Below are positions 638-43,745 of a stretch of 64,000 bases of DNA, piece by piece (within the stretch, counting starts at the first letter, position 1; the number at the start of each line of letters is the position of its first letter). The notes beneath the pieces were generated by a model. The model searched no databases. It worked only from the letters and a program-made list of their open reading frames with translations, and had not been told where the DNA came from. The position numbers and the translations under genes are program-made. Origin of the DNA: Paralichthys olivaceus (taxonomy: Eukaryota; Chordata; Actinopteri; Pleuronectiformes; Paralichthyidae). The DNA lies in assembly GCF_024713975.1 (NCBI RefSeq), contig NC_091114.1, positions 3,444,001 through 3,508,000 on the forward strand. The letters are read 5' to 3'.

Positions 638-2743
638 ATGGTGCTGGTGCACATAGAAGCTGTTCCAGACCAACCACCTAAAGAGGTTCCTGGTTCCAGC
701 CGGTGTCTCGTGATCAAAGAAACAGAAGTGGTCCATATAACACGACAACAGCTTCACTTTGTAGACCAGGAGTCCCCCGAAAGTGAGCTGACATACACAG
801 TCACTACTCCACCTTTCCACACTGGTCCTCACAGGTTCGTATGCTCTGAAACAATCTATACACCAGACTGCAGAGGAGTATTCTGTCTGAACAATGTGCT
901 CCTGGTTTGATCAGCACTCCTGATGCAGGGAGATTGTTCCTGGTGGACAGTATACCCAAATTCACCAAAGACTCCACTGCACCTGTTCTGAGGCTCTTCA
1001 CACAGGTAACGCTTTGAGTTTTCAATACATTAAATGTACACTTGTTGACAGATTTATCAAAAACTCAGGGATTTATGTTTTTATCTTGTTCCCAGCATGC
1101 AGTGAACTTCATGAAAGTAGCCTACATGCCTCCAATCATGGACATCGGCCCTTACCCCCAGCACATCCAGTTTGTTCTCTCTGTCACCAACCGTCTGGGT
1201 AAAACAGTCACTGGTATCTGCTTCAACATCACTGTGACACCAGAAGACAACCAGCCACCACAGGTGGAGGAGATAGCTGTATCATACTTGTCTCACTCAT
1301 TGCATGTTGGCATGTGGATGTGTAGAAAAAGAATCTATTTTGTTCCAGGTCATCACCAATGCTCTATCTGTAGATGAGGGCGGGGAGTGCTGGCTTGGCC
1401 CTGAACACTTGCTGCTCTCAGATATGGACTCTATGGAGGAAGCCCTGCGGGTGGCGCTGCAGAAGGAACCACAGCATGGAGCCCTGCAACTCGGCGGCCT
1501 CCTACTACAACCAGGCCAGGCATTCACTGTGCAAGACGTGAAAAGCTTTAAAGTTAGGTCAGAAATCCTGGTTTATTCATTTCTTCATGTTATTTGGGAT
1601 TTAAAAGGTTGGATCATCCTAATAGAACAAACTACATTTCCCCCTTATTACCCTGTGGTATCCTTCATAAAAACTCAAGAGGTGTTTAGGTTATCTGGTT
1701 TTGACTACTTTAAAAAACATGGCGGCCTCCATAGAGGACCCACTCCTGATGTAAATATAGAGTATTTAAATATAAAGGACCCATTCTACGGTAAATAAAA
1801 CAACAATTTATATGAAAGACACTAGTGAGAACATCACAAGGATTATTTTATATTCAATTTCTGCCTATAGATCCCTTTCACCTAAATCTTACACACTGGA
1901 CCTTTAAAGAGACATTCTAAAGCTCATATTGATCAGAACATTACTCCCAATTACACAATAAGTGATACCATGAAAACTCACATTTAAGTCAGATAATGAC
2001 GTCATGGACAGTCCGAACATGCATTTTTCAGGTATCTCAGCATCCTATAGGCAGGACCTTAAGCTTACATAGTTCTAAAAATAATATATATGGCCACATG
2101 ATAGGATGAGGCCATCATGATGTCTTGTCTAACAATGTCACTGTTGCTATAGGAATGGATTCATTGTTTTGAATTCTGACTGTTTCTTTCTGTTGTCAGA
2201 ATGTCTGACTTGAATTTCTTTTGATGCGCAGTTACAATCATGACAACTCAGAGACTGTAGAGGACAACATTGAACTCTCTGCAACGGATGGAACCAATTC
2301 AGTCAGTTTCATCCTGGAAGTGAAGGTAATTGTTCTCATGTTCAGAAGAGAGTGATCTGAATGGCTTCCCACTCTTGGACCCTTTATCGTTACACTAAAG
2401 TGACTTGCGTGTGTTCTCCAGGTGAAGCCCATTAATGATGAGGTCCCGGTGTTGGCCGCTGGTTTGAAACCAGTTCTCAACTGCGCCGAGGGTCAGGAGA
2501 TCACCATCACAGCAGAGTACATCTTTGCTTCTGATGCAGACAGCGACAACAGCAGCCTGGCCTTCTTGATTGCGCGGCAGCCGTACCACGGCGTGGTGCT
2601 ACAAAATGGTGTCGTGGTCGATCACTTCCTCCAGGCAGATATCATAGCAGGGATCATCACCTACAAACACACAGGTAGACTGCAGAGGTCGCACTAATGT
2701 CACCACTTTTTTAAGGGTCATCCACTTTAGACGACCCTTAAAA

Positions 2744-2835
<92 letters not shown>

Positions 2836-18752: not shown

Positions 18753-18766
18753 AGGGACTGTAGAGA

Positions 18767-21700: not shown

Positions 21701-23901
21701 AGGATCCTCAGTATGATGAACAATGAGGCAGCACCAAGCTACTTCAATGGAGGAAGTCTGACCCAGTACAAAGACTACAGGTGAGCACTGTCGACTTGTT
21801 TCTGGTCTCTAATCATAAAAGTCTTCTGGTATTGTGGCCTCTACTCTTTTACTGTTTGAACTCTATTTTATTTGTTGAAAAAAATCTTGTCACAGCTTCT
21901 CACCTGACATTATGCTTCTAAGCAGGGACATACCATATTTTTTTCTGGGAGTACAGGGGATTCAAGCAACATCTTACAATTTAAATGTTCAGACATTTCT
22001 CCACTTCTAGATATTGTGGACGTTTCTAGACTCTGTCTAAGTTGGACTTTTTAGCTCAGTAAAAATGGACAAATCAATAAACAAAATTAGTAAATAAAGG
22101 ATTTATTATTTCGCAAGCAGAATCGGCCAGTGGGAAACATTTAGGAAAATCACGTTGGAAATTAAAAAGTAAATCAAATGACTAGGAATATGGATGAATC
22201 AGACAGTATAGGATAATGGTCTTTCATCCTCCGTACACTGTTTCGAGTCTAACTACACAGTCCACTACACGAACAGTGTTACTTTATGTCAGTGTTTTAG
22301 ATCCAGGCGACATGTTGGCTCATCTCTATCAGCTACCTGCATACGTATAAATGAACACTAGCTTAGTTTTAGAATGAAATACAAAACAACGTGGTGACAC
22401 AACAGCATACAATGGTACGACACCTACATACAACATGAACACAAGGGAAAAGAAGAGAGACATGGGGGGTGTGGAGGCCCCAGGGTCCAAGAGGACTGAC
22501 TCAACCATTTCCACTTCAGTCCTTTAACTAGTTGTGTATTTTAACACACTTTAGTTTGTCTTTGTCTGTTAAACGTGGATAGAATTCAACTTAATGGCTC
22601 TGTTGCTTTGTCAGCTTCTGCGTCTCAGTGAGTTGTGGAGGTGGATCGACCCACGTCACGTCCCATCACTGCAGTAGAAAGGCACAGCACACTGAACACT
22701 GCCAACACTGTCCAAACTATCAGAACTACATGTACAGTACATGCTGCAGTTTGTGTCATTTATATACAGTATATATATATAGATCACAAATCCAATGGGT
22801 TATTTCACCATAGCAGTGAAAATGAACATGTTAGTTTGTGTTTAAGCTCTTTCATGAATTCATTTTGTGTCTACACTGTTGGAGCTGAGTTCATTCCACT
22901 TTATTACTGCTGTTGTCGCTGCTGCTGTGTTGTAGCACATTTCACTATTGAAGCTGTTCCATCGTTTCTTCAACACATGTGGGAGCAGAATCCAAACATC
23001 TCTTCAGTCTAATACAGTCCAGTACATCCTTCAATTCAATTTGATTTGTATAGCGCCAAATCACAACATACATTATCTCAAGGCACTTTCCATATTAAGG
23101 TCCAGACCTTGAAGATAACAGAGAAACCCAACCCAACTATGGCGAGAGTAAAACTAAGTAAATCTACTTCAAGTATAAAAAGTCAAGTGCAGCCCATTCT
23201 CTCCTCTGTCTGTATATTGTTTAATACAATGCTAGTCCACTCTGTCATATATCTCTTTTAAATGCAGTCATGGACGAGGTTTATTTCACGACTGAGTCTT
23301 GGTGGTGGCCTCGTCCAAATCCTTTTTACATGCGTCTTCCACCAAATGTGCTACTGCTGCAGGAGGCGTGGTCTAATCCTACCTGCCTGTTCCGATTGGA
23401 TCAGTGGACTAGTTCCATTATTGAAATATTCCAAAAATAAAGCAAACATGTAACACAGTGCATTGTTAAAAGATATACTGGTGTAGACTCAGATATTTAC
23501 TGATATATGAAGTGGAGTAAAATTTAAATTTACCTGAAAATGAATCTACTTAATTACTGATTACTGAAAACATGAAAAATGTAGTACTGTAATGTAGTAA
23601 ATGTACTTCATTACATCCCACAACTGCATCTATATACATGAGGTCAACCTGCACACAATGTTCTGCAAATGGTGATTTTCATTTTTCTGTTCATTTGTTC
23701 CTCTGCAGACAGTACGTCATCAGTCAGATCCCAGGTCTGGAGATTCTGGATGACACAGAGGTCCTGGAGAAGGAGAGAGCCCAGGCTCGGAAAACCTACA
23801 GGCTGCAGCAGAGCGGTCACGGCAGCAGGAAGAGGAAGGACAACTCCTCCAGGAAACACACACACATGCAGAAAAAGTCTAATACTATCATAAGACAATA
23901 G
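18767..23901 (+). CDS. Small leucine-rich-repeat protein, LRMDA (C10orf11)-like
   Basis: Four coding exons with matching phases: 18767-18930, 20150-20341, 21703-21780, 23709-23901 (627 nt, 208 aa, TAG stop). The first ATG follows an acceptor at 18752, with a possible 5'UTR exon at 17111-17216. The protein has no signal peptide. It has LRR phrases '[13 protein letters not shown]', '[10 protein letters not shown]', '[15 protein letters not shown]' and 'FPNLKILSMMNN', then an LRR-cap-like block '[17 protein letters not shown]', and a basic tail with 'GSRKRK'. Size and cap resemble LRMDA, a protein linked to melanocyte differentiation in human and fish, but identity looks modest; another short LRR protein is possible. 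The last exon is duplicated at 37172-37364. The gene faces the lectin gene tail-to-tail, 1.05 kb away. Confidence 0.65.
19198..19560 (+). repeat. Teleost interspersed repeat, degenerate copy with GA-rich and ATA-rich tracts
   Basis: A diverged copy of the repeat seen at 10163: 'TTGTGCCAACTCACAACATA', then a purine-rich tract at 19300-19400, an (ATA)n stretch near 19440-19490 and 'AGCTGGATCCCGCAGCTCTG'. It lies in the LRR gene intron after the exon ending at 18930. Confidence 0.6.
20750..21060 (+). repeat. Interspersed repeat with 'GGCCTTGGCAGAGGTATGTG' end
   Basis: The stretch contains 'TTCACAAAACTTGGTGGAAG', 'ATGGGTCAGAGAGGAACCCA', 'AACATTGCATGATAGGGTG' and 'GGCCTTGGCAGAGGTATGTG', which together form a repeat seen widely in fish. 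A partial copy lies at 63355-63420. It is non-coding and sits in the third LRR-gene intron. Confidence 0.6.
23031..23110 (+). repeat. Fragment of teleost interspersed repeat (unit 1)
   Basis: 'CAATTCAATTTGATTTGTAT', 'AGCGCCAAATCACAACATAC' and 'CTCAAGGCACTTTCCATA' match the family at 10163. The unit-2 counterpart is at 36511-36590. Confidence 0.75.
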
Positions 23902-24099
23902 CACAGACTTGTAACAGTCACAGCTTTAGTGTAACACTGTCAACCCTATCATTTACTGTACACTGTGAGCTCTGTAGCTGCTTGTACTCACAGCTACACA
24001 ATGTTTACACTCTATATTCAGATGTAAAAGCCATGTTTAATAAAGTGATCAAATTAAAACAGGAAATATTCCACTGTCGTTTGTACCAAAATCCCCTCT

Positions 24100-24112
24100 G
24101 ACATATTTTATG

Positions 24113-24154
<42 letters not shown>

Positions 24155-24190
24155 CATAAAATATATATATATATATATATATGTATGTAC
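24100..24190. repeat. (AT)n microsatellite with palindromic arms
   Basis: An (AT)n run is flanked by the inverted arms TTTTATGTCTG and CAGACATAAAA (about 24105-24160), then a second (AT)n run. It gives a long near-perfect hairpin. The unit-2 counterpart (37517-37590) is (AT)n-rich but lacks the arms, so this stretch has changed since duplication. Confidence 0.8.
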
Positions 24191-24952
24191 TAAGTCTAGA
24201 CTTCTTTTCAACACGTATACTTTGCTTTTACTGGAGTCTCAGTATTGGTCAAAAGAATTCACTGGAGATGGTCAGAGTTCAATGCAGTAGAGTTTATTCT
24301 TTTACAAGATGTAAACCAGAGCTGGCTCCAGAAGCCAACTGAAGACTGAGCTTCAAACCTTCTGCTTATATATATATACTCTACTATATATACTTTATAT
24401 ATGCTCATCCTCGTCTCTGCTGTTGCCCGTTCAACCAATCAGGAGGTGGATCTCTCCACTTCCTTTCTGGTTCAAAACTTCTGATTCGTCCCGAACCGAA
24501 TGGTGTCATACTTTCCCAAGTTGACTTTGTCTCCCCCTACAGTCACGTCAGGGCTCGATTCTAATGGTGTATTAAAGAGGTGGTTGTTGGTCCAACTTTG
24601 ACACCATTATAAATCTTGGAGGTTTGGAGGCCTCTGTTTCAGGCCTTACTCGATTTCGAAGGTCCTGTCTCCAGACTCCATTAGATTCCAGCGATGTCTA
24701 TCTGCATTTTTTAAATTCTTACATTTCCACATGTTAAATATATGTGCAACAAACAATCATTCCAGTAAGGGTGCATACATGATTACATTTCTTTATGCTG
24801 GATATAACACACAGTTTAAGCATATAAGCACACAAAGGCTAATGTTTCTACAACAGCATTCATTGCTATGGTTTAACTGCGTACAGTGATAGTGGTGTGT
24901 ATATGTGCAGACATGAAACATTGGCGCATGCATTCAAAGTTGAATTCAAATT

Positions 24953-27179
24953 TCAGAGCTCAGTCTTTTTTTTCTTGTCGGAACCTTTTTCCTCCTTGTG
25001 GAAAACTTTCCCATCAGACTTTTCTTTCCACTTCAAGGTGACGCCACTCAGTCCATTCTCGTTGAATCTTTCCTGGAGCTGGAAAACAAATAGCAGCTAT
25101 TTAAATACGTGAAACAGATTCCTTTGCTCCCTAAGACAAAGGGTTATGTTTTTATTTAGTCAATTCAATTAGATTTATATAGCGTGTATATGATAACATG
25201 CATTATCCCAAGGCACTTTACATAGAAGATCAAGACCTTAAACATTGTAGAGAAACCCAACAGTTCCCACTGTGAGCAGCAGAGAACAGAGAGAGATAGG
25301 AGGAGGAGAGGAGGGAGGAAAATAGGGAAGAGAGAGAGATAGGAGGAGGAGAGGAGGGAGGAAAAGAGGGGAAGAGAACAGAGAGAGATAGGAGGAGGAG
25401 AGGAGGGAGGAAAAGAGGGATAGAGAACAGAGAGAGAGATAGGAAGAAAGAGAGACCAGGTCGTGCACCATCAGGTTTCAGCTGTGACAGACTAGTTGTT
25501 ATAATGAAAACAATAAGAGTGATAATTATGAATGTAAAGATGTTATTAGTGATAGCAGCAACCATTCATATAATAGTAACCATACCAATAATATGAATAA
25601 TAATAATAATAGAAGAATTGTGGTTTGTCTGAATCCTGCAGCTCTGGACACATAAACAGCATCAGGTCACAAAGTGACACTTTCGTCATGACCAGTCAAA
25701 CATTTGATTCTATTTCTTTCATTGTTGTGGCTGCTTTGCATTGTGGAACATCTGTGGCTGAGTTTTTTACATTCACTCATCTACTTCATGGTTATTTGAT
25801 GATGTCAAACTCTGTAATACATGTGTCCAGGGTCCATGAATGAGTTAATGTCTCAGGGTGGATTTTGGAGACTTGCCTTTTTCAGAATCTGTTCTCTCAC
25901 AGCACGGTCATTCAGGTCCACAGAGGAGTCCTGCAGCTTCACCCTCACCTTCACCAACGTCTCAACTTCTGCTCAGACAAAGAACGAGGAGAGAAACAAA
26001 ACACAGGTGTAACGTGTTGTATAGTTTAGTGAAACCTACAGTTCTTCCTGTGGTGATAGAACAACTCAGACTTTTGATGTAAAACACAGAGGGCGGAGCG
26101 TCTGGTCTCTGGGCTGCATGTTGCCTACAAGACAGCTTGATCAGGCCTGTCAGAAAACTTACAAATACAAAAACAAGCAACTTAGAAATACAAAAAAGAT
26201 TCTCACTTGGGATGCTGTAGCAGACAAATGGAAATCTTTCTTCACAGGACAATAACCTCCATTTTCCTCCCTGCTGCAAATCGGCAACACCACATACGAC
26301 TTTCATCGAGCCAAGTACCATTTCACCCTCATACCAGGAGCTGAATGAGTAGCCACTCCCGTCAGACCAGTAGATCTGAGGATCTCTGTACAAACCGATC
26401 CACACCCATTCTTCATGTTGCATCAAGTTATGTATCTTGTCCTTGTCAGCTTGGTTCCTCACAGTGACCAGATCTGTGTAGTGTTCTCTGCAGTGCCTCT
26501 GAGCCTCAGTCCAAGTCTTTGTTGTATTCACTACCACAAAGTCAGAATCCTCTAATGTTCCTGCAGTTAAGTTAGAGAACAAAAGAGGGATTGTTGAGAT
26601 CACAATGTTTTCAAAATTATATTTTAGACATTATGTTGTATAGTAAAGATCAATATAAAACACATCATTACCATTGTAGCAGACAAATGCAGTCACTCTT
26701 TGGCAATAAGCATCAACCCATCCTGCTTTCCACATGCCCACACAGAGCTGATTGGCTCCATGATAGTTTGGGTTAGACCATCCCCAGCTCCTATATTCAG
26801 CTCCACTCCCTGTGAACCCATCTGACCACTTCCAGTCAATCTGACTGTACAGGCCAATCCAAACCTTGTAACCAGCAGCAGAAACTGTGTCTTTAAGTTT
26901 CTTCATTTCTTCAGTGGTTTCAATGGTGGCCAGGTCTGTGTACCTCCCTCTGCAGTAGCTCTGAGCTTCAGTCCAAGTCATTGCTTCAGACACAAAGTGG
27001 TACTGATGGAGGAGGCATGTGGAGAAGGTGAGGCACCCTGAGGATGGAACCAGTTATTTGTGTTATGTATGAAGACTCAAATGAATCTCTATATTCAGAT
27101 TTCCTGTTAGACATCATACAAAGAGTGAAATTCACTGACCTGAGAGACACAAGACACCAAAGAAGATCCCTTCCATCAT
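24953..27179 (-). CDS. Secreted two-domain C-type lectin, copy 1
   Basis: Five exons on the minus strand: 27179-27140, 27037-26672, 26560-26207, 25968-25877, 25078-24953 (978 nt, 325 aa, TGA). Start is the first of two adjacent ATGs before a hydrophobic signal peptide 'MMEGIFFGVLCLS'. CTLD1 (about residues 15-135) shows 'WTEAQSYCRGRY', 'VWIGLY', 'WKWSDG' and 'AFVCY'. CTLD2 (136-254) shows 'WTEAQRHCREHY', 'VWIGLY', 'YWSDG' and 'PFVCY'. The tail (255-325), with 'VKVRVKLQDSSVDLND' and 'LKWKEKSDGKVFH', is typical of fish proteins annotated as mannose-receptor-like lectins. There is no transmembrane helix. CTLD1 has NPN and WVD in place of EPN and WND; CTLD2 has neither. The ligand is unknown and an immune role is inferred. 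Exon 4 ends in a GC donor (AAG|GCAAGT). An LTR element begins 454 bp upstream of the ATG. Confidence 0.87.
25159..25640 (+). repeat. Teleost interspersed repeat inside lectin-1 intron 4
   Basis: The repeat starts 'CAATTCAATTAGATTTATAT' and 'CAAGGCACTTTACATAGAAG', continues through a GA-rich tandem array, and ends near 'GAATCCTGCAGCTCTGG'. It interrupts the long last intron of lectin 1. The unit-2 counterpart is at 38567-39010. Confidence 0.8.
25270..25450 (+). repeat. GA-rich minisatellite (VNTR), longer array in unit 1
   Basis: A purine-only repeat built from 'AGAGAGATAGGAGGAGGAG' and 'AGGAGGGAGGAAAAGAGGG' modules of about 40-50 bp occurs about three to four times here. In unit 2 (38690-38805) there are fewer copies, so copy number has changed since the duplication. 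Confidence 0.85.
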
Positions 27180-27627
27180 GCTGCTGCTCTGTGGACTGTT
27201 TGTGCCAGTGTTCATCACCAACAGTAAACTTAACCAGTTCTCATGTAGATTTAGGGAAATGTAACACCAGCTCCTCCTCTTCTACTGACAGTAGAACAGT
27301 CATTGTTCTGTTGCATGCTTTATGCAAAAAGGCAAAGATGCAAAATGGCATGGCCTCTCACTATGCAGATAGTTCTGATCATATGGGAACAACACTAGTC
27401 TCTGCCTCCACCCCTGTGCAGGTGGTGAGTGAATGAATGTTTGTTTGTGTTGAGGTTCCGAAGGTCCTTCATCCCAACAGCCATAAGACTTTTCAACAAA
27501 CACGTAAAAACAGTGTAATAATTATTCCTCTCATTTTTCTGAATCTACCTCCTACATATATATCTATCTCATGTGCAATATTCATATTCAGTCTTCAGGT
27601 GTGTGTGTAATACTTTTTGAATTGTTA

Positions 27628-27632
27628 CATCC
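27628..27632 (+). repeat. 5-bp target-site duplication, left (CATCC)
   Basis: CATCC directly before the left LTR is repeated at 30885-30889 directly after the right LTR. Unit 2 has a single CATCC at the matching empty site (about 40993-40997). Confidence 0.93.
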
Positions 27633-28093
27633 TGTCACGGTCATGTATGTTCAGTGTTTCCTGTTTTATTTTGTAGTCCTTGCTCCCTGTGTGTTTTCAC
27701 CCGTTTACTTCCTGCCCTCATCAGGTTCACCTGTTTGTCTTGTGCCACCTGTCCCCAGTTACTCATTAGTTCCAGTCTGTATATAAGTCTATGTGTTTCC
27801 CCCATGTGGTTGTTGGTTCGTCATCGTCATTTCGGGTCAGTCCTGTCCGTCAGCTCAATTCTGGTTCTGTCTGTTCATGTGTCCCGTCAGCTCTCGTCAC
27901 GTTACCCCGTAAGTTTGTATCCTGCCTTGTTCTGTGTTCCACTCCTCTTTTTGAGTGCGACTTTTGTTTCTTGGAGATTTCTTTTGTTAAGTTTACCCCC
28001 TTTGAAATAAAATACACTTTTTGTTAAACCTTATTTAGTTTCTGCGTTTTGGTCCTCCCCTTCTCACGTCACCCCCCCACTCGAACCCTGACA
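27633..28093 (+). repeat. Left LTR (461 bp)
   Basis: It begins TGTCACGGTCATG and ends AACCCTGACA. It contains a promoter-like TATATAAG at 27780-27787 and a polyadenylation signal AATAAAATAC near 28005. Confidence 0.92.
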
Positions 28094-28110
28094 GTACGAA
28101 CCAACCAGAA

Positions 28111-30404
28111 ATGGACCAAGCAGAGCTTTATGGTTTTTGTAGGAAGGTTTTTTATTTTGACTCCTTGGTGGATGAGCTGAGCACCGCAGGCACCAAGCAG
28201 CGTGAAAAGCTCCTGGAGAGAATGGCACCGGTGCGGGATTGGCTTAAGGACAGACCCTGGGTCAGCCACTTTGTCCCGCACCTGGTGACCGTAGAGAAGA
28301 GACTAAGGGACATCCTCTCATCCCCAACTCCCCCTGCAGATCCCTACCTCGGCACCCGCCTGGCTTTTGGGGGCCCCCGCAGTCTGCGTAGAAACGCTAC
28401 GACGCGGGGCGGGCGCCGGAGGGGAGCCCCCTCACTCAGTTTCCATCCATCTCCACCAGTTAACAGACGGCAACCTCAATACAGCATATCGTGGATTCAG
28501 GCAGATGCTACCCACGTTCCAGCATCGGGGGTCCCGGCTGACGTCACTCACGTTCCGGCGTCGGGGATCCCGGCAGATGCTACCCACGTTCCAGCGTCGG
28601 GGGTCCCGGTTGACGTCACTCATGTTCCGGCGTCGGGGATCCCGGCAGATGCTACCCACGCTCCAGCGTCGGGGGTCCCGGCTGACGTCAACTCATGTTC
28701 CGGCGTCGGGGATCCCGGCAGATGCTACCCACGTTCCAGCGTCGGGGGTCCCGGCTGACGTCACTCATGTTCCGGCGTCGGGGATTCCCGCAGATGCTAC
28801 TCACGTTCCGGTTTCGGAGGTCGCCGTTCCTGTTCCTGCCCCACGGTCGGGGTTTCAAGCAGTCGTCTCGCCAGTTCCTGCCCCTCGTCTGGGGGTTACG
28901 GCAGGCGGCACTCCAGTTCCTGTTCCTGCCCCACGGTCGGGGTTTCAAGCAGTCGTCTCGCCAGTTCCTGCCCCTTGTTTGGGGGTTACGGCGAGCAGCA
29001 CTCCAGTTCCTGTTCCTGCCCCACGGTCGGGGGTTCAAGCAGTCGTCTCGCCAGTTCCTGCCCCTCGTTTGGGGGTTACGGCGAGCGGCACTCCAGTTCC
29101 AGTTCCTGCCCCACGGTCGGGGGTTCAAGCAGTCGTCTCGCCAGTTCCTGTCCCTCGGCTGAGGGTTACAGCGAGCGGTTCTCCAGTTGCTGCTCCACGG
29201 TCGGGGGTTCAAGCAGTAGTCTCGCCAGTTCCTGTCCCTCGGCTGAGGGTTACGGCGAGCGGCTCTCCAGTTCCTGTTCCTGCCCCACGGTCGGTGGTTC
29301 AAGCAGTCGTCTCGCCAGTTCCTGTCCCTCGGCTGAGGGTTACGGCGAGCGGTTCTCCAGTTGCTGCTCCACGGTCGGGGGTTCAAGCAGTCGTCTCGCC
29401 AGTTCCTGTCCCTCGGCTGAGGGTTACGGCGAGCGGCTCTCCAGTTCCTGTTCCTGTTCCACGGTTGCGGGTCTCGCCGGGCTCCGCTTCAGTTCCTGTT
29501 CCTGTCCCACGGATGCGGGTCTCGCCTGGCTCCGCTTCAGTTCCTGTTCCGCGGTTGCGGGTCTCACCTGGCTCCGCTTCAGTTCCTGTTCCTGTTCCAC
29601 GGATGCGGGTCTCGCCTGGCTCCGCTTCAGTTCCTGTTCCGGTCCCACGGATGCGGGTCTCGCCTGGCTCCGCTTCAGTTCCTGTTCCTGTCCCACGGTC
29701 GAGGGTTAGGCCGGCAGCTGTCGTCTCCTCCGGTACAGCGACAGCAGCGTCATCGGTCATCTCCTCCTGAGTGTCGACCTCAGCGTCAGCTGCTATCTTC
29801 TCCAGAGCCTCCCGTGTCACAGCAGCAGCCCCAGCTGCTATCTTCTCCCGAGCCTCCTGTGTCACAGCAGCAGCCTCAGCTGCTATCTTCTCCCGAGCCT
29901 CCTGTGTCACAGCAGCAGCCTCAGCTGCTATCTTCTCCCGAGCCTCCTGTGTCACAGCAGCAGCCTCAGCTGCTATCTTCTCCAGAGCCTCCTGTGTCAC
30001 AGGAGCAGCCTCAGCTGCTATCTTCTCCAGAGCCTCCTGTGTCACAGCAGCAGCCCCAGCTGCTATCTTCCCCAGAACTTCCTTTGACTGGACTGCAGAA
30101 GCAGCTGATTTTCCCTGAGCCCCTGGGCTCTGTTTCTGATCGGCCTCCGGGCCGCCCACCCGAGCCCCCGGGCTCTGTTTCTGACCGGCCTCCGGGCCGC
30201 CCGCCCGAGCCCCCGGGCTCAGTTTCTGACCGGCCTCCGGGCTGCCCGCCCGAGCCCCCGGGCTCTGTTTCTGACCGGCCTCCGGGCCGCCCGCCCGAGC
30301 CCCCGGGCTCTGTTCCAGATTCCCACCCTCCTCCCACCCCTCTCAGTTTCATGTGTACTCCTCCTTTAATTTCAGTTTTGGACCGTCTGGAATCCGGTCC
30401 TTAA
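28111..30404 (+). pseudogene. Proline-rich, gag-position reading frames of the LTR element (broken)
   Basis: An open frame starts with ATG at 28111 and gives about 75 non-repetitive residues ('MDQAELYGFC' start; charged, helix-like, no known capsid motif). After these come proline-rich repeats. Open reading continues in a second frame to 29770 and in the third frame to the stop at 30404, so at least two frame changes interrupt what looks like a single repeat-rich coding region; one falls near 28690. I recognise no enzyme or zinc-knuckle motif. It occupies the gag position but cannot be called gag from sequence alone. Confidence 0.6.
28494..30312 (+). repeat. Five consecutive minisatellite arrays inside the LTR element
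   Basis: Arrays in order: 36-bp units (28494-28815, encoding 'THVPASGVPADV'-type dodecamers); 90-bp units (about 28820-29450, with CCACGGTCGGGGGTTCAAGC; 28921 and 29011 start successive units); 48-bp units (about 29450-29705); 45-bp units (about 29790-30075, 'SQQQPQLLSSPEPPV'); and different 45-bp units (about 30112-30312, 'EPPGSVSDRPPGRPP'). All periods are multiples of 3, so copy-number change keeps the frame. Confidence 0.85.
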
Positions 30405-30415
30405 GGGGGGGGTTA

Positions 30416-30884
30416 TGTCACGGTCATGTATGTTCAGTGCTTCCTGTTTTATTTTGTAGTCCTTGCTCCCTGTGTGTTTTCACCCGTTTACTTCCTGCCC
30501 TCATCAGGTTCACCTGTTTGTCTTGTGCCACCTGTCCCCAGTTACTCATTAGTTCCAGTCTGTATATAAGTCTTTGTGTTTCCCCCATGTGGTTGTTGGT
30601 TCGTCATCGTCATTTCGGGTCAGTCCTGTCCGTCAGCTCAATTCTGGTTCTGTCTGTTCATGTGTCCCGTCAGCTCTCGTCACGTTACCCCGTAAGTTTG
30701 TATCCTGCCTTGTTCTGTGTTCCACTCCTCTTTTTGAGTGAGACTTTTGTTTCTTGGAGATTTCTTTTGTTAAGTTTACCCCCTTTGAAATAAAATACAA
30801 TAAAATACTTTTTGTTAAACCTTATTTAGTTTCTGCGTTTTGGTCCTCCCCTTCTCACGTCACCCCCCCACTCGAACCCTGACA
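30416..30884 (+). repeat. Right LTR (469 bp)
   Basis: Same ends as the left LTR. It differs by three substitutions and an 8-bp insertion that doubles the AATAAAATAC polyadenylation segment near 30790-30807. Confidence 0.92.
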
Positions 30885-30959
30885 CATCCAATGTATATTT
30901 TCCACTTCCCATGTGCAATATCACTGTGCATTTCTGGTGTATTTTTATAGTGTTTACAT

Positions 30960-30964
30960 TTTTC

Positions 30965-31005
<41 letters not shown>
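30960..31005. repeat. (AT)n microsatellite
   Basis: An (AT)n tract with a few interruptions downstream of the LTR element. At the unit-2 counterpart (about 41070-41100) the tract is short and T-rich. Confidence 0.8.
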
Positions 31006-31007
<2 letters not shown>

Positions 31008-31686
31008 TCTTATTTTTTTATACTTTTATTTTTCTCTACCTTAATGCCCTTCTGTAGCTGTAATGTCGAAATTTCCCCAGTGTTTAATGAATAAAGTCTT
31101 TCTTATCGTATCTTATCTTATCTTTGCTCACACCGTGGATCCAATGATACCTCTGTGACAGGGATGTTTGAAATGTTTATCTATTAATGTTGTGATCCCC
31201 TCTAATTCCATCCAATATGTAGATCACATGAAAATAAGGATGAAAAGAGAAGAGAAAGAAATGATGATGATGAGTATTATTATTATTATTATACTGCTAT
31301 CATCTATAAATGATTTTCAGTACAACCAGTCTGACAATAGCTCCTGGTCTCTCTCTCTCCTCCTTCTCTTTGCCTGCTTTCAGGTATCCAGTGTTCATCT
31401 TTACAACATGGATGTGTTCATGGAGACACCATTTGCCCCACATGTCTCAGATCCAGTCCTTCTAGGCCCAAGCACCAACTCAGCCCCAGCATGTTGTGTG
31501 TTTCCTGATCTCAACCACAAACAGCAGCTCTACAGCAGCACTTCCTGGAAGAATTATTCCACTTCCTAAAAATAATGCAAAGGAGTCAACATGACAACAC
31601 TTCTTTCTGTTGTTCTGGCTGCTTTGCATTGTAAAACCTCTCTGGCAGGAGTTCTTTGTATTCACTCATGTCCCTCATGGTTACTT

Positions 31687-31760
31687 TCACAGCAGGGTCA
31701 TTCAGGTCCAGAGGAGTCCTGCAGCTTCAACAACGAGGAGAGAAACAAAACACAAGTTTC
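31687..31760 (-). pseudogene. Relic of a lectin exon 4 (unit 1)
   Basis: Read on the minus strand, this matches lectin exon 4 around 'KLQDSS-DLND'. It has a 2-bp deletion, and the 5' half of the exon plus its acceptor is missing. The flanking DNA (31600-31690) matches the intron next to the intact exon at 25740-25870. It is a leftover of an older tandem lectin copy that predates the present two units, since unit 2 carries the same relic at 41969-42036. Confidence 0.75.
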
Positions 31761-31785
31761 CAGTGGTACTAGCTTTGTGAAGAAG

Positions 31786-32948
31786 GATCGGGAGAAGGAC
31801 TTCAGCCACCATCACCACCAACATCGGGACCCCACAGGGCTGTGTCCTCAGCCCCATCCTCTACACCCTGTTCACCCATGACTGCGTCGCTTCCCACCCC
31901 GACAACACCATCGTCAAGTTTGCCGACGACACTGCCGTGATAGAACGCATCACCGGCGGTGGCGAGGCAGCCTACAGGAGGGAGGTGGACAATCTAGTGA
32001 CGTGGTGTGGAGACAACAACCTCACCCTCAACACAGACAAGACCAAGGAGATGGTAGTGGACATGGGGAAGGAGAGGAGGCCTCACCAGCCACTGTTCAT
32101 CCGAGGTCTTGAGGTGGAGAGGGTGAGGAACTTCAAGGACCTGGGGGTCCAAATCAGTGACGACCTCACTTGGACATTGAACACTACACAGATGGTGAAG
32201 AAGGCTCAGCAGCGGCTGTATTTCCTGAGGAGGCTGAGGAAATTTGGGATGGCCCCCAGGATCCTCAGCAATTTCTACAGCTGCACAATTGAGTCTGTCC
32301 TGACCAACTGCATCACTGTGTGGTACGGCAGCTCTACTGTACGGGACCGCAAACGCCTGCAGAGAGTGGTAAAGACTGCGTCTAAGATCACCAGGACACC
32401 ACAACCCTCTCTGCAGTGCATCTATCACCGCAGAGTCCACAGGAGAGCTGTCTCCATCATCAAAGACCCCACTCACCCCCAACATGGACTTTTCACACTC
32501 CTACCCTCAGGCCGCAGGTTCAGGAGCGTGAGATGCAGAACCACCAGGATCAAGGACTCCTTCTTTCCCACAGCCGTTAGACTGCTAAACAGCTGAACCC
32601 ACCCTTAAGGACTGAGCCCCCCCTCACTGGTCACTTTATCTTCTATTGGACACTTTATTCCATTGCACTACATAACCTGTTGCCTTGAATCCATCAGCTC
32701 AATTGCACTATACCGTTTACTGCGGAATGTTGTACATCATTTTTCATCACACAAGAACATTTTATGTTTCTCTCCCTATAGTTTATATTTCTATTTTTTA
32801 CTGCATTTGCTTTGTTATATTTTCTTAGATTTATTTATATATATTCCGGCATCCTGTGTGGGCAGCAATGTAAGAATTTCATTGTACAGGGAAACGTGTT
32901 TCTTTACCGTGCATATGACAATAAAGCTTTGAAATTGAAATTGAAATT
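31786..32948 (+). mobile_element. 5'-truncated LINE (L2/CR1-group) with partial reverse transcriptase
   Basis: This is the 3' part of a non-LTR retrotransposon. From about 31830 an open frame shows the reverse-transcriptase phrases 'GTPQGCVLSPILYTLF' and 'VKFADDT' (catalytic FADD), then the C-terminal region with 'WYGSSTVRDRKRLQ' and 'FPTAVRLLNS', ending at the stop 32594-32596. The 3'UTR ends in 'ATGACAATAAAGC' and a short GAAATT repeat tail, as in L2-type elements. The endonuclease and the first part of the RT are missing, so it cannot move by itself. It replaces a 1368-bp stretch present in unit 2 (42066-43433). Confidence 0.87.
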
Positions 32949-33257
32949 TCAGTGTGTCGTCACTTCTGACTGCATATGTCTGTCAGGTCATGGTCAAGTC
33001 CTGTTAGACTGTCCAGAAGAGAAAAGTAAAGACTTAGATATTAAGGACAAGCTATCTTGGGGGGATTGTAATCCAGAGGCTGGTGTAGTATTTTCATAAA
33101 TCAGGGGCCACAATTAACACAGAGGGGCCAATTCCATATCAAACATCCATGTCCAACTCCTGATTCAGTAACATGCACATTTAAAGATTCACTCTTTAGA
33201 GTTTGGTGACATCTAGTGGTGAAGTTGCATGTTGCAGCTGAGTACCTCTCACATCTC

Positions 33258-35831: not shown

Positions 35832-37171
35832 GAACATTAGTTTAGTTTTAGAATGAAATACAAAACAACATGGTGACACAACAGCATACAATGGTACAAC
35901 ACCTACATACAACATGAACACAAGGGAAAAGAAGAGAGACATGGGGGGTGTGGAGGCCCCAGGGTCCAAGAGGACTGACTCAACCATTTCCACTTCAGTC
36001 CTTTAACTAGTTGTGTATTTTAACACACTTTAGTTTGTCTTTGTCTGTTAAACGTGGATATAATTCAACTTAATGGCTCTGTTGCTTTGTCAGCTTCTGC
36101 GTCTCAGTGAGTTGTGGAGGTGGATCGACCCACGTCACGTCCCATCACTGCAGTAGAAAGGCACAGCACACTGAACACTGCCAACACTGTCCAAACTATC
36201 AGAACTACATGTACAGTACATGCTGCAGTTTGTGTCATTTATATACAGTATATATATATAGATCACAAATCCAATGGGTTATTTCACCATAGCAGTGAAA
36301 ATGAACATGTTAGTTTGTGTTTAAGCTCTTTCATGAATTCATTTTGTGTCTACACTGTTGGAGCTGAGTTCATTCCACTTTATTACTGCTGTTGTCGCTG
36401 CTGCTGTGTTGTAGCACATTTCACTGTTGAAGCTGTTCCATCGTTTCTTCAACACATGTGGGAGCAGAATCCAAACATCTCTTCAGTCTAATACGGTCCA
36501 GTACATCCTTCAATTCAATTTGATTTGTATAGCGCCAAATCACAACATACATTATCTCAAGGCACTTTACATATTAAGGTCCAGACCTTGAAGATAACAG
36601 AGAAACCCAACCCAACTATGGCGAGAGTAAAACTAAGTAAGTAAATCTACTTCAAGTATAAAAAGTCAAGTGCAGCCCATTCTCTCCTCTGTCTGTATAT
36701 TGTTTAATACAATGCTAGTCCACTCTGTCATATATCTCTTTTAAATGCAGTCATGGACGAGGTTTATTTCACGACTGAGTCTTGGTGGTGGCCTCGTCCA
36801 AATCCTTTTTACATGCGTCTTCCACCAAATGTGCTACTGCTGCAGGAGGCGTGGTCTAATCCTACCTGCCTGTTCCGATTGGATCAGTGGACTAGTTCCA
36901 TTATTGAAATATTCCAAAAATAAAGCAAACATGTAACACAGTGCATTGTTAAAAGATATACTGGTGTAGACTCAGATATTTACTGATATATGAAGTGGAG
37001 TAAAATTTAAATTCAAGTTTTGATTACTGAAAACATGAAAAATGTAGTACTGTAATGGAGTAAATGTACTTCATTACATCCCACAACTGCATCTATATAC
37101 ATGAGGTCAACCTGCACACAATGTTCTGCAAATGGTGTTTTTCATTTTTCTGTTCATTTGTTCCTCTGCAG

Positions 37172-37364
37172 ACAGTACGTCATCAGTCAGATCCCAGGTC
37201 TGGAGATTCTGGATGACACAGAGGTCCTGGAGAAGGAGAGAGCCCAGGCTCGGAAAACCTACAGGCTGCAGCAGAGCGGTCACGGCAGCAGGAAGAGGAA
37301 GGACGACTCCTCCAGGAAACACACACACATGCAGAAAAAGTCTAATACTATCATAAGACAATAG
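37172..37364 (+). pseudogene. Orphan duplicate of the LRR gene's last exon
   Basis: Near-identical to the terminal exon at 23709-23901. It keeps the CTCTGCAG acceptor, reading frame and stop, with one visible amino-acid change (N to D near 'GSRKRKD'). The upstream exons were not duplicated, so it cannot make the protein alone. Its phase (one base completing the codon) fits the donor at 21780, so it could serve as an alternative last exon of the same gene. Otherwise it is a non-functional exon copy. Confidence 0.8.
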
Positions 37365-37504
37365 CACAGACTTGTTACAGTCACAGCTTTAGTGTAACAC
37401 TGTCAACCCTATCATTTACTGTACACTGTGAGCTCTGTAGCTGCTTGTACTCACAGCTACACAATGTTCACACTCTATATTCAGATGTAAAAGCCATGTT
37501 TAAT

Positions 37505-37541
37505 AAAGTGATCAAATATATATATATATATATATGTGTGT

Positions 37542-37594
<53 letters not shown>

Positions 37595-37595
37595 T
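37505..37595. repeat. (AT)n microsatellite (unit 2)
   Basis: A long AT run interrupted by TGTGTGTATAC. It matches the position of the palindromic AT tract in unit 1 but differs in structure. Confidence 0.85.
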
Positions 37596-38359
37596 GTACT
37601 AAGTCGAGACTTCTTTTCAACACGTATACTTTGCTTTTACTGGAGTCTCAGTATTGGTCAAAAGAATTCACTGGAGATGGTCAGAGTTCAATGCAGTAGA
37701 GTTTATTCTTTTACAAGATGTAAACCAGAGCTGGCTCCAGAAGCCAACTGAAGACTGAGCTTCAAACCTTCTGCTTATATACATACTCTACTATATATAC
37801 TTTATATATACTCATCCTCGTCTCTGCTGTTGCCCGTTCAACCAATCAGGAGGTGGATCTCCCCACTTCCTTTCTGGTTCAAAACTTCTGATTCGTCCCG
37901 AACCGAATGGTGTCATACTTTCCCAAGTTGACTTTGTCTCCCCCTACAGTCACGTCAGGGCTCGATTCTAATGGTGTATTAAAGAGGTGGTTGTTGGTCC
38001 AACTTTGACACCATTATAAATCTTGGAGGTTTGGAGGCCTCTGTTTCAGGCCTTACTCGATTTCGAAGGTCCTGTCTCCAGACTCCATTAGATTCCGGCG
38101 ATGTCTATCTGCATTTTTTAAATTCTTACATTTCCACACGTTAAATATATGTGCAACAAACAATCATTCCAGTAAGGGTGCATACATGATTACATTTCCT
38201 TATGCTGGATATAACGCACAGTTTAAGCATATAAGCACACAAAGGCTAATGTTTCTACAACAGCATTCATTGCTATGGTTTAACTGCGTACAGTGATAGT
38301 GGTGTGTATATGTGCAGACATGAAACATTGGCGTAAGCATTGAAAGTTGAATTCAAATT

Positions 38360-40544
38360 TCAGAGCTCAGTCTTTTTTTTCTTGTCGGAACCTTTTTCCT
38401 CCTTGTGGAAAACTTTCCCATCAGACTTTTCTTTCCACTTCAAGGTGACGCCACTCAGTCCTTTCTCGTTGAATCTTTCCTGGAGCTGGAAAACAAATAG
38501 CAGCTATTTAAATACGTGAAACAGATTCCTTTGCTCCCTAAGACAAAGGGTTATGTTTTTATTTAGTCAGTTCAATTAGATTTATATAGCGTGTATATGA
38601 TAACATGCATTATCCCAAGGCACTTTACATAGAAGATCAAGACCTTAAACATTGTAGAGAAACCCAACAGTTCCCACTGTGAGCAGCAGAGAACAGAGAG
38701 AGATAGGAGGAGGAGAGGAGGGAGGAAAAGAGGGGAAGAGAGAGAGATAGGAGGAGGAGAGGAGGGAGGAAAAGAGGGAAGAGAACAGAGAGAGATAGAA
38801 GGAAAGAGAGACCAGGTCGTGCACCATCAGGTTTCAGCTGTGACAGACTAGTTGTTATAATGAAAACAATAAGAGTGATAATTATGAATGTAAAGATGTT
38901 ATTAGTGATAGCAGCAACCATTCATATAATAATAATAACCATACCAATAATATGAATAATAATAATAATAGAAGAATTGTGGTTTGTCTGAATCCTGCAG
39001 CTCTGGACACATAAACAGCATCAGGTCACAAAGTGACACTTTCGTCATGACCAGTCAAACATTTGATTCTATTTCTTTCATTGTTGTGGCTGCTTTGCAT
39101 TGTGGAACATCTGTGGCTGAGTTTTTTACATTCACTCATCTACTTCATGGTTATTTGATGATGTCAAACTCTGTAATACATGTGTCCAGGGTCCATGAAT
39201 GAGTTAATGTCTCAGGGTGGATTTTGGAGACTTGCCTTTTTCAGAATCTGTTCTCTCACAGCACGGTCATTCAGGTCCACAGAGGAGTCCTGCAGCTTCA
39301 CCCTCACCTTCACCAACGTCTCAACTTCAGCTCAGACAAAGAACGAGGAGAGAAACAACACACAGGTGTAACGTGTTGTATAGTTTAGTGAAACCTACAG
39401 TTCTTCCTGTGGTGATAGAACAACTCAGACTTTTGATGTAAAACACAGAGGGCGGAGCGTCTGGTCTCTGGGCTGCATGTTGCCTACAAGACAGCTTGAT
39501 CAGGCCTGTCAGAAAACTTACAAATACAAAAACAAGCAACTTAGAAATACAAAAAAGATTCTCACTTGGGATGCTGTAGCAGACAAATGGAAATCTTTCT
39601 TCACAGGACAATAACCTCCATTTTCCTCCCTGCTGCAAATCTGCAACACCACATACGACTTTCATCGAGCCAAGTTTGTTTGGACCCTGATACCAGGAGC
39701 TGAATGAGTAGCCACTCCCGTCAGACCAGTAGATCTGAGGATCTCTGTACAAACCGATCCACACCCAGTCTTCATGTTGCATCAAGTTCTGTATCTTGTC
39801 GTTGTCAGCTTGGTTCCTCACAGTGACCAGATCTGTGTAGTGTTCTCTGCAGTGCCTCTGAGCCTCAGTCCAATTCTTTGTTGTCTTCTCTACCACAAAG
39901 TCAGAATCCTCTAATGTTCCTGCAGTTAAGTTAGAGAACAAAAGAGGGATTGTTGAGATCACAATGTGTTCAAAATTATATTTTAGACATTATGTTGTAT
40001 AGTAAAGATCAATATAAAACACATCATTACCTTTGTAGCAGACAAATGCAGTCTGTCTTTGGCAATAAGCATCAAACCATCCTGCTTCCCACATGCCCAC
40101 ACAGAGCTCCTTGGCTTTAAAATAGTTTGGGTTAGACCCGTGCCAGATCCTATATTCAGCTCCACTCCCTGTGAACCCATCTGACCACTTCCAGTCAATC
40201 TGACTGTACAGGCCAATCCAAACCTTAGAGCTGTAACCAGCAGCAGGAACTGTGTCTTTAAGTTTCTTCATTTCTTCAGTGGTTTCAATGGTGGCCAGGT
40301 CTGTGTACCTCCCTCTGCAGTAGCTCTGAGCTTCAGTCCAAGTCATTGCTTCAGACACAAAGTGGTACTGATGGAGGAGGCATGTGGAGAAGGTGAGGCA
40401 CCCTGAGGATGAAACCAGTTATTTGTGTTATGTATGAAGACTCAAATGAATCTCTATATTCAGATTTCCTGTTAGACATCATACAAAGAGTGAAATTCAC
40501 TGACCTGAGAGACACAAGACACCAAAGAAGATCCCTTCCATCAT
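38360..40544 (-). CDS. Secreted two-domain C-type lectin, copy 2
   Basis: Paralogue of copy 1 with the same five exons: 40544-40505, 40402-40031, 39919-39566, 39330-39236, 38485-38360 (987 nt, 328 aa). Signal peptide, two CTLDs and the 'VKVRVKLQDSSVDLND' and 'KSDGKVFH' tail are intact, with no stop or frameshift. CTLD1 is two codons longer ('GYSSKVW' against 'GYKVW'). The CTLD exons differ from copy 1 at 22 residues, mostly around the ligand-binding half: 'SNPNYFKAKEL' against 'SNPNYHGANQL', and 'WYQGPNKLG' against 'WYEGEMVLG'. The exon-4 acceptor used in copy 1 is mutated (CAG to CTG); the GAG three bases upstream restores an in-frame junction and adds one residue. The exon-4 GC donor is shared. 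The LTR insertion is absent. The products are probably distinct soluble lectins with different ligands. Confidence 0.86.
38567..39010 (+). repeat. Teleost interspersed repeat inside lectin-2 intron 4
   Basis: Counterpart of 25159-25640, with the GA-rich array shorter here (38690-38805). Confidence 0.8.
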
Positions 40545-40992
40545 GCTGCTGCTCTGTGGACTGTTTGTGCCAGTGTTCATCACCAACAGTAAACTTAACC
40601 AGTTCTCATGTAGATTTAGGGAAATGTAACACCAGCTCCTCCTCTTCTACTGACAGTAGAACAGTCATTGTTCTGTTGCATGCTTTATGCAAAAAGGCAA
40701 AGATGCAAAATGGCATGGCCTCTCACTATGCAGATAGTTCTGATCATATGGGACCAACACTGGTCTCTGCCTCCACCCCTGTGCAGGTGGTGAGTGAATG
40801 AATGTTTGTTTGTGTTGAGGTTTCGAAGGTCCTTCATCCCAACAGCCATAAGACTTTTCAACAAACACGTAAAAACAGTGTAATAATTATTCCTCTCAGT
40901 TTTCTGAATCTACCTCCTACATATATATCTATCTCATGTACAATATTCATATTCAGTCTTTAGGTGTGTGTGTAATACTTTTTGAATTGTTA

Positions 40993-40997
40993 CATCC
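40993..40997 (+). other. Empty (pre-insertion) site of the LTR element
   Basis: The sequence 'TTGTTACATCCAATGTATA' is continuous here, with a single CATCC. In unit 1 the same sequence is split by the LTR element between two CATCC copies. It therefore records the state before insertion. Confidence 0.92.
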
Positions 40998-41295
40998 AAT
41001 GTATATGTTCCACTTCCCATGTGCAATATCACTGTGGATTTTGTGGTGTCTTTGTATAGTGTTTACATTTTTCTTTATATTTATATCTATATTTTTTTTT
41101 ATTCTTATTTTTCTCTACCTTAATGCCCTTCTGTAGCTGTAATGTTGAAATTTCCCCAGTGTTTAATGAATAAAGTCTTTCTTATTGTATCTTATCTTAT
41201 CTTTGCTCACACTGTGGATCCAATGATACCTCTGTGACAGGGATGTTTGAAATGTTTATCTATTAATGTTGTGATCCCCTCTAATTCCATCCAAT

Positions 41296-41500
41296 ATGTA
41301 GTATTGTTTGCAAAGACTCAATGATCACACCTTGTAGATTTGTTTCATTACTTTACTGAACTGCCCGAACATCACACCTTGCGGCACCTGCTGTACTTCA
41401 GTGCTGAAACTCTTAAAAGCACAGTAACCTGTCACAAACAGAACACAACATAATATCAACAGGCCCAACAGGACACCCTGTTTTCAGACATAACATGTAG
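41296..41500. mobile_element. 193-bp insertion private to unit 2, flanked by ATGTAG
   Basis: Unit 1 reads continuously through 'CCAATATGTAGATCACATG'. In unit 2, 193 bp (41302-41494) lie between two ATGTAG copies (41296-41301 and 41495-41500), which looks like a 6-bp target-site duplication. The insert has no open frame, no clear inverted ends and no A-tail. It could be a solo LTR or a short non-autonomous element; I cannot name it. Confidence 0.75.
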
Positions 41501-41968
41501 ATCACATGAAAATAAGGATAAAAAGAGAAGAGAAAGAAATGATGATGATGAGTATTATTATTATTATTATACTGCTATCATCTATAAATTATTTTCATTA
41601 CAACAACCAGTCTGACAATAGTTCCTGGTCTCTCTCTCTCCTCTTTCTCTTTGCCTGCTTTCAGGTATCCAGTGTTCATCTTTACAACATGGATGTGTTC
41701 ATGGAGACACCATTTGCACCACATGTCTCAGATCCAGTCCTTCTAGGCCCGAGCACCAACTCAGCCCCAGCATGTTGTGTGTTTCCTGATCTCACCCACA
41801 AACAGCAGCTCTACAGCAGCACTGCCTGGAAGAATTATTCCACTTCCTGAAAATAATGCAAAGGAGTCAACATGACAACACTTCTTTATGTTGTTCTGGC
41901 TGCTTTGCATTGAAAACCTCTCTGACAGGAGTTCTTTGTATTCACTCATGTCCCTCATGGTTACTTTC

Positions 41969-42036
41969 ACAGCAGGGTCATTCAGGTCCAGAGGAGTCCT
42001 GCAGCTTCAACAACGAGGAGAGAAACAAAACACAAG
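41969..42036 (-). pseudogene. Relic of a lectin exon 4 (unit 2)
   Basis: Same degenerate fragment as 31687-31760, with the same 2-bp and larger deletions. The decay therefore happened before the segmental duplication. Confidence 0.75.
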
Positions 42037-42065
42037 TTTCCAGTGGTACTAGCTTTGTGAAGAAG

Positions 42066-43433
42066 TACCTGGATCTTTAATTCAAACACATCTTTGAGTC
42101 AAAACACATTTCTTCTCTGGACTCACATGAGGTCACCCTGACCTTTGACCTCTGAAGTCTAATCTGTTCATCTTCAACTTCTTCAGGTGACAACTGCTCA
42201 GAATGTGAGGAAATGATCGACAGACAGACTTGAAATATCGTGTTCAAGAGGCCAAAACATGTTTTATAAGTTCACCACCACCAACTGAAATCTAATCAGT
42301 TCATCTGTGAGTCTATGGCTGTGTTCCAAATCCCTCACTCATCACTATATAGTGCACTACATGGTGAGTTCACCATTTTTAATGGTGTCCAAATGTTTAC
42401 TGATTTGTTTTATAACCTTTGTAATGGACTCATTGTTTCCCACAATGCTTCATGAAAAGTAGTGTACAACCAATGGTCACTAACCAAACAATATATACCA
42501 TCATGCATTGCACTCGTGGTGGAGAGACGAGAGGAGCGAGGGAAGCAGGAAGAGCCTGATCTGTGGTTTAAATGTAAATAGAAGCAGAGCAGCACATCAC
42601 AGCACAAAGTGGAGAAAACAAGTTTATTTCTACATTTAAAGATGATCATCCAACATGTTTTTTTACATTAAAGCTGTGAAATAAACATTTATAATTTACT
42701 GTGGGATTTTCCACATTGTTTGTTTTCCAATGAGCTCACTATATACTGCTCTGTATAGCAGTCACTTTTTGGACTTTTCATTGAAGTTGTGATCTTTTGT
42801 TTGGACTCTGGATTTGTACTTTGTAATTAAATGTTCCCTTCGCCTCAGTTTAGTTACGTCCATGTTGTTCTATTTCCTGTTTTAATGTGTCCTTCACTTC
42901 CTGTTCCCCCATGTGTCATTGTTGGTCACTTCATTCTTGTGATTGTGTGCCTCTGACCTCATGTGTTTCACCTGGGTTCAGTTATTCCGTCTGTGTCAGG
43001 TCGTCTCTTCACTTTGGTTCTGTTCAGTCCAGCTCCTGTGTCTCTGTTTTGAGTTTCAGCTTTTGGATCACCTGAGTTCTCTTACCAGCCTTCTGAGTGT
43101 AAGCAATTCAATTTTTTGATTTAGTATTTTTCCCTGCACTTCTTGTTTTCTTCTGGGGTTTTTGGCATCATTTGTGTCCAGTTATCCAACAAACATGACA
43201 TTAATGAGGCTAAACATTAATTTATCAAGTTGATGACCTTGAACTTCTTTCAGTTGTAATCAAATCATCCTTGAAGTGAATATTTGTGTTGGATGTAAAA
43301 ACAGAATTTGAAGAACGTCCCTCTTCAGACATGTTTTCATAATAATGGAACGGACAAACAACCTGAAAACCTCCACCTAAGTTTTTCTGCATCAAAGTAA
43401 AAACACACATTAAACATTAGACCAACATTTCTC
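42066..43433. other. 1368 bp present only in unit 2, with nested repeats
   Basis: This is the sequence replaced by the LINE in unit 1. It has a reversed segment related to 7588-8170 (42110-42300), a block with 'CACTATATAGTGCACTACAT' and a matching inverted phrase near 42735 (42327-42790, possible MITE), and a T/C-rich stretch at 42840-43100 resembling part of an LTR. There is no intact gene. Confidence 0.6.
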
Positions 43434-43745
43434 TCAGTGTGTCGTCACTTCTGACTGCATATGTCTGTCATGTCATGGTCAAGACCTGTTAGACTGTCCA
43501 GAAGAGAAAAGTAAAGACTTAGATATTAAGGACAAGCTAGTTTGGGGGTATTGTAATCCAGAGGCTGGTGTAGTATTTTCATAAATCAGGGGCCACAATT
43601 TACACAGAGGGGCCGATTCCATATCAAACATCCATGTCCAACTCCTGATTCAGTGAGATGTACATTTAAAGATTCAGTGTTTAGAGTTTGGTGACGTCTA
43701 GTGGTGAAGTTGCATGTTGCAGCTGAGTACCTCTCACATCTCCCT

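Follow-up and report, generated by a model that had tools for sequence, protein, structure and literature searches.

Multigene families which are diversified by gene conversion together with selection include the MHC, SpTransformer, and others. The described group which comes closest to the lectin genes analyzed here is the Fugu group F1 (FDC-F1 to F7), which by its description consists of soluble proteins with two C-type lectin domains (CTLDs). These dual-CTLD proteins resemble the mannose-receptor group, are restricted to fish among vertebrates, and were called quickly evolving by the authors (Zelensky and Gready, 2004; PMC514892). Unlike the family reported below, the available part of that source describes neither a near-identical array with diversity limited to loops nor a piN/piS test or mosaic exchange.

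Three further systems share single features with this family, as far as the accessible parts of the respective sources describe them. The sea urchin SpTransformer (185/333) genes are likewise small, clustered and mosaic in sequence, and belong to a host-defence family, but they encode another protein with internal repeats and do not form a CTLD loop system (PMC5491942; PMC8634487). The teleost finTRIM genes are likewise a fish multigene family shaped by duplication and positive selection, but their products are intracellular TRIM proteins and not lectins (PMC2657112). The variable proteins of diversity-generating retroelements (DGR) likewise carry variable ligand-site residues on the scaffold of the C-type lectin fold, but they are prokaryotic and arise from error-prone reverse transcription at adenines (PMC5006420). 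A limited search of the open-access literature yielded no vertebrate array of secreted C-type lectins whose diversity is confined to the sugar-site loops.

Two genes coding for two-CTLD lectins were identified on the minus strand of the window, i.e., the whole analyzed 64-kb stretch of DNA (positions 3444001-3508000 of its contig, named C22 here). They are called W1 (copy 1) and W2 (copy 2) and are given in window coordinates; names of the type A01-A17 denote array genes on C22. Both genes show the layout leader-CTLD1-CTLD2-tail in a model made from genomic DNA (Table 1), and their proteins are apparently secreted; inspection by eye showed no membrane segment. All four CTLD exons match PF00059 with 52.9-67.3 bits against a curated cut-off of 22.6, and the disulfide cysteines of the C-type lectin domain are intact in W1 and W2. 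The boundaries of these exons, which had been proposed in an earlier note on this DNA from the letters alone, match the splice signals. Exon 4 of W1 (window 25970) has two candidate acceptors 3 bp apart (GAGCAG). In W2 (window 39329) the second acceptor is gone (GAGCTG), and the first one stays in frame.

Table 1. Features of the lectin genes W1 and W2 and of the segmental duplication, in window coordinates.
Feature	Position	Strand	Basis and remarks
Segmental duplication copy 1	22353..33257		self-BLAST; partner 35832-43742; broken by insertions including an LTR element
Segmental duplication copy 2	35832..43742		self-BLAST
W1 exon 1, signal-type leader	27140..27215	-	translation MNTGTNSPQSSSMMEGIFFGVLCLS, or start at internal Met; donor CTCTCAG/GTCAGT
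W1 exon 2, CTLD1	26672..27037	-	Pfam Lectin_C E 2.4e-18; splice sites
W1 CTLD1 hypervariable stretch, about codons 83-120 of family alignment	26684..26791 (approximate)	-	divergence, W1-W2 differences
W1 exon 3, CTLD2, long-tail type with splice donor	26207..26560	-	Pfam Lectin_C E 7e-14; splice sites
W1 CTLD2 variable loop, about codons 77-84	26311..26333	-	W1-W2 substitutions; family divergence 16.8%
W1 exon 4 (tail)	25877..25971	-	translation; acceptor ambiguous by 3 bp
W1 exon 5 with stop (LQERFN...KKKKTEL)	24953..25078	-	translation
W2 exon 1, signal-type leader	40505..40580	-	translation, splice sites
W2 exon 2, CTLD1	40031..40402	-	Pfam Lectin_C E 5.8e-18; splice sites
W2 exon 3, CTLD2	39566..39919	-	Pfam Lectin_C E 5.3e-15; splice sites
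W2 exon 4 (tail)	39236..39330	-	translation
W2 exon 5 with stop	38360..38485	-	translation

The two copies of the segmental duplication diverge unevenly in their flanks, namely by 1.0% leftward, by 2.3% at 31.2-31.8 kb, and by 4.2% over a short block (32.9-33.3 kb), so that the age of the duplication cannot be fixed by a single number. A 3.25-kb LTR retrotransposon-like element (27633-30884) with 460-bp LTRs differing by 3 mismatches, TG...CA ends, and the target duplication CATCC has inserted upstream of the leader exon of W1, at a distance of about 0.42 kb, and the empty site lies near 40997 in copy 2. Its inner frames are repetitive and gave no Pfam match. An open frame on the plus strand is common to both copies (23593-23901 and 37056-37364) and may, as a guess, be the 3′ exon of a leucine-rich-repeat (LRR) gene; another frame at 18764-19012 showed weak LRR matches below the cut-off.

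Elsewhere in the window, exons on the plus strand at about 2400-14800 matched Cadherin_3, together with one weak match each of the Calx-beta and the lectin-like type. They probably belong to a gene of the FREM1/CBCP type, which itself ends in a CTLD. Furthermore, a frame coding for a HlyIII/PAQR-type membrane protein (52828-54069, plus strand) and the C-terminal exon of an aconitase (62848-63147, minus strand) were found.

The CTLD exons of W1 and W2 differ by 31 substitutions, 17 in the CTLD1 exon and 14 in the CTLD2 exon, as well as by a 6-bp indel, CTLD1 of W1 being two codons shorter than that of W2. Alignment and codon counting thereby confirmed that the pair differs almost exclusively by amino acid-changing substitutions, as the earlier note had claimed: among the 23 changed codons, 22 alter the residue and one, at 26283, is synonymous. 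The clustering of the changes was recovered as well, with 16 of the 17 CTLD1 changes in 26673-26788 and 7 of the 14 CTLD2 changes in 26317-26330. Within the hypervariable stretch of CTLD1, 15 of 108 sites differ. The NG86 pathway count yields 29.5 nonsynonymous (N) and 1.5 synonymous (S) changes on 572.8 N and 141.2 S sites, and the codon alignment, which had been suggested as a check, gives a dN of 0.053 and a dS of 0.011 with a ratio of 5.0. The two copies differ at 21 of 2275 noncoding sites within the same block (0.92%, with microsatellites and other exons masked). The N rate is thus 5.7 times the noncoding rate (Fisher P = 3e-9, sites taken as independent).

When changes at most 3 bp apart are merged, 18 events remain, the density of which is still above the noncoding one (Poisson P = 1.8e-4). 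The N:S skew of the pair is not significant after this merging (P = 0.10), and therefore the skew alone was rejected as sufficient evidence. Transitions and transversions are distributed 7:24 in the exons vs. 15:6 in the noncoding sequence (Fisher P = 0.0007), which fits either an import of older variation, as opposed to recent mutation, or selection favouring radical changes.

W1 and W2 belong to a family of 23 genes. A whole-genome DNA search with the leader-to-CTLD1 stretch of W2 as query hit 24 places in the 588-Mb, 25-contig assembly, the gene content of which points to a teleost, and all 24 were scored; 23 are family members with at least 96% identity, and the remaining one is a 95-bp scrap. 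Seventeen members form an array of genes in the same orientation at about 3.274-3.351 Mb of C22, about 93 kb left of the window. W1 and W2 are located about 120 kb beyond this array in opposite orientation. C13 carries two further members, and C12 and C21 have a single one each. In all 23 genes the CTLD exons are stop-free and the expected splice sites are present. Soon after CTLD2, 11 of the 19 C22 genes stop (CYSVRGWCFL, stop); the other eight splice to tail exons, which are also found in all four genes off C22 and thus in 12 of the 23. All six long-tail genes of the C22 array (L009-L017) have the loop form that is lengthened by two codons (...NEPDY). One conserved cysteine each was lost in CTLD2 of A10 (L015/L013; changed to Tyr) and in CTLD1 of the C12 gene (L020; changed to Ser), both with open frames.

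The family genes came from L009-L020 of the 20 loci fetched, while L027 duplicates the gene C13b. L021-L026 and L028 entered tblastn only, in which six of these seven gave CTLDs at 23-39% identity and L026 gave none. The genome list of PF00059 loci is a lower bound, as 150 of 244 candidates were scored. Since the downstream parts of the 23 genes differ, a core alignment was used; the whole-gene alignment over 3.6 kb is meaningless outside the common core.

Among the 19 C22 genes the diversity is limited to the loops. Mean pairwise divergence amounts to 15.6% in the 108-bp variable stretch of CTLD1 and to 12.0% and 16.8% in two loops of CTLD2, vs. 0.9% for the CTLD1 scaffold, 0.8% for intron 2, 1.6% for the upstream region with intron 1, and 0.7-3.5% for the remainder of CTLD2. 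The CTLD1 loop peptides occur in 15 distinct forms, and the combination of loops is distinct in each of the 19 genes. For codons 83-120 of CTLD1, piN is 0.183 vs. a piS of 0.067 (ratio 2.7, P = 0.0002), and for three CTLD2 loops with 30 codons 0.141 vs. 0.042 (ratio 3.4, P = 0.0006), both P values being from a codon bootstrap in which codons are treated as independent and the gene pairs have a common history. The N:S ratios of singletons and shared variants, 40:8 and 82:9, showed no significant difference (P = 0.28). In the scaffold, pN and pS are about equal between the C22 genes and those on other chromosomes (ratio 0.98-1.56), which gives no support for strong purifying selection there.

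The AlphaFold model of CTLD1 of W2, built from 4 sequences, reached a mean pLDDT of 48 and was too poor for a fold search; therefore, the variable residues were placed by alignment to solved mannose-binding proteins. The variable stretch of CTLD1 of A14 aligns gap-free over 41 residues to the human mannose-binding protein 1hup, and its EPN, E, and WND fall on the corresponding positions. The aligned site residues, which we take to be E185, N187, E193, N205, and D206 in rat numbering, are represented in the 19 C22 genes by E in 9, D in 4 and N in 6 genes; N in 11 and D in 8; E in 15 and Q in 4; S in 9, F in 5, V in 4 and N in 1; and D in all 19, respectively. The full EPN, E, and WND set is found in one C22 gene, A14, and additionally in the C12 gene. 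Whereas A14 is like the mannose-binding protein CTLD (1hup and others) in these residues, W1 carries NPN/Q/VD and W2 NPN/E/FD, with V or F replacing the Asn of WND. Because the complete set is missing, no classical mannose site is predicted in CTLD1 of either gene, and by inspection their CTLD2 is without a WND-type motif. At least one CTLD with Ca2+/carbohydrate residues, taken as a mark of the Fugu group F1, was accordingly found in A14 and C12, and in neither W1 nor W2.

The variants are arranged in a mosaic. At 67 informative sites all four gametes were observed in 47% of the pairs, rising from 17% at a distance of 1-5 bp to 49-50% beyond 100 bp. In a PHI-like permutation of the positions a value as low was obtained in 1 of 2000 trials, and within CTLD1 alone in 2 of 5000. 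Tiling each gene from the others took 183 segments vs. a mean of 269 and a minimum of 246 in 300 shuffles of the site order. Homoplasy without exchange would not yield the dependence on distance. Gene conversion would be the mechanism of this exchange, to which repeated unequal crossing-over could add. Mantel correlations between regions were mostly weak, but not all nil, with the highest rho (0.36) between the halves of the CTLD1 loop stretch.

The differences between W1 and W2 are largely drawn from this shared variation. For 26 of the 31 differences both states occur among the other 21 genes, and for 24 among the 17 array genes alone; the control consists of just two noncoding core differences, both private, and convergence at hypervariable codons can also give shared states. 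At least three other genes are needed as donors of the shared states for W1 and at least five for W2. Codon runs are held in common, like GGA TGG in W1, A04, A13, and A14, or CAC GGG in W2, A02, A08, A11, A15, and A17. In the CTLD1 loops W1 shows 9 and 10 differences to A04 and A13 vs. 15 to W2, and in the CTLD2 loops 8 to A05 vs. 14 to W2, whereas a comparison of the noncoding core places W1 and W2 closest to one another, on a par with A02.

This pattern bears on the explanation that new amino acid mutations were fixed by positive selection in W1 and W2 independently after the tandem duplication, without exchange. The high dN/dS ratio and N rate of the pair as well as the positively selected loops of the family are in its favour, but the sharing of states, several of them as whole codons or runs, and the loops of W1 being nearer to array genes than to W2 make it improbable. 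Moreover, the private changes amount to just 4 N:1 S relative to the 21 genes or 6 N:1 S relative to the array, which is near the 4:1 ratio of sites. As most differences are shared and the private ones follow the site ratio, the dN/dS of 5 is no gauge of new adaptive mutations since the duplication. W1 and W2 rather seem to differ mainly by conversion shuffling of older, family-selected loop variants, and not by a burst of new amino acid mutations.

A point against the preferred explanation by conversion and selection is that synonymous diversity is also higher in the loops than in the scaffold (0.055 vs. 0.010). Deeper ancestry or a mutational hotspot thus contributes, and besides being selected, the loop variants are of greater age or have undergone less homogenisation. 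That a mutational hotspot or a targeted hypermutation of the loops acted with no selection at all, as this raised synonymous diversity might suggest, is very unlikely, since loop piN exceeds piS 2.7-3.4 fold, the cis-proline and the last Asp in the Ca2+ site are invariant in all 23 genes, and adenine-templated mutation of the DGR style was not seen, 16 of the 73 variable loop sites having no A among their states. Similarly little weight can be given to an assembly artefact, in which misplaced alleles or other array genes mimic a tandem pair or the loops are built from mixed reads: the heterozygosity of fish does take in a flank divergence of about 0.9%, but the copies lie 13 kb apart in one N-free window, differ by the LTR insertion with its empty site and by unequal flank divergence (1.0% to 4.2%), and have different loop combinations, as do all 19 C22 genes.

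It is therefore highly probable that W1 and W2 are members of a 23-gene family in which conversion homogenises the scaffold and shuffles loop segments, and selection favours loop differences. Strong diversifying selection or conversion tracts from other lectin paralogues had been offered as alternatives. This earlier reading is supported in part: there is evidence of both, each on a level of its own, of the former in the family by loop piN above piS in the 19 C22 genes and of the latter by the 26 shared differences. Gene conversion would keep the 19 C22 genes alike in the leader, in the introns, and in most of the CTLD scaffold, while conversion of short tracts would shuffle small loop segments around the classical sugar/Ca2+ site. 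Selection would keep and favour amino acid differences in the loops and thereby lead to an own combination for each gene. The extreme look of the W1-W2 pair would then result from exons that hold different pieces of a common pool inside near-identical flanks.

These proteins are plausible recognition proteins. Their loops probably determine ligand specificity, which the loop differences may alter in the context of immunity, symbiosis, or fertilisation. A more tentative reading, which we consider possible but would not favour, is that the array is a germline generator of a repertoire, in which about twenty near-identical genes for secreted lectins continually swap short loop segments and each product binds another target. 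The Ca2+/sugar residues would then be among the diversified positions and the set would vary between individuals, giving the C-type lectin fold a diversity like that of antibodies or the MHC. If the explanation by conversion and selection is true, the family would provide natural loop variants in compact form on a single scaffold, with which the evolution of lectin specificity could be tested, and its locus would be a candidate for polymorphism of resistance or mating in fish.
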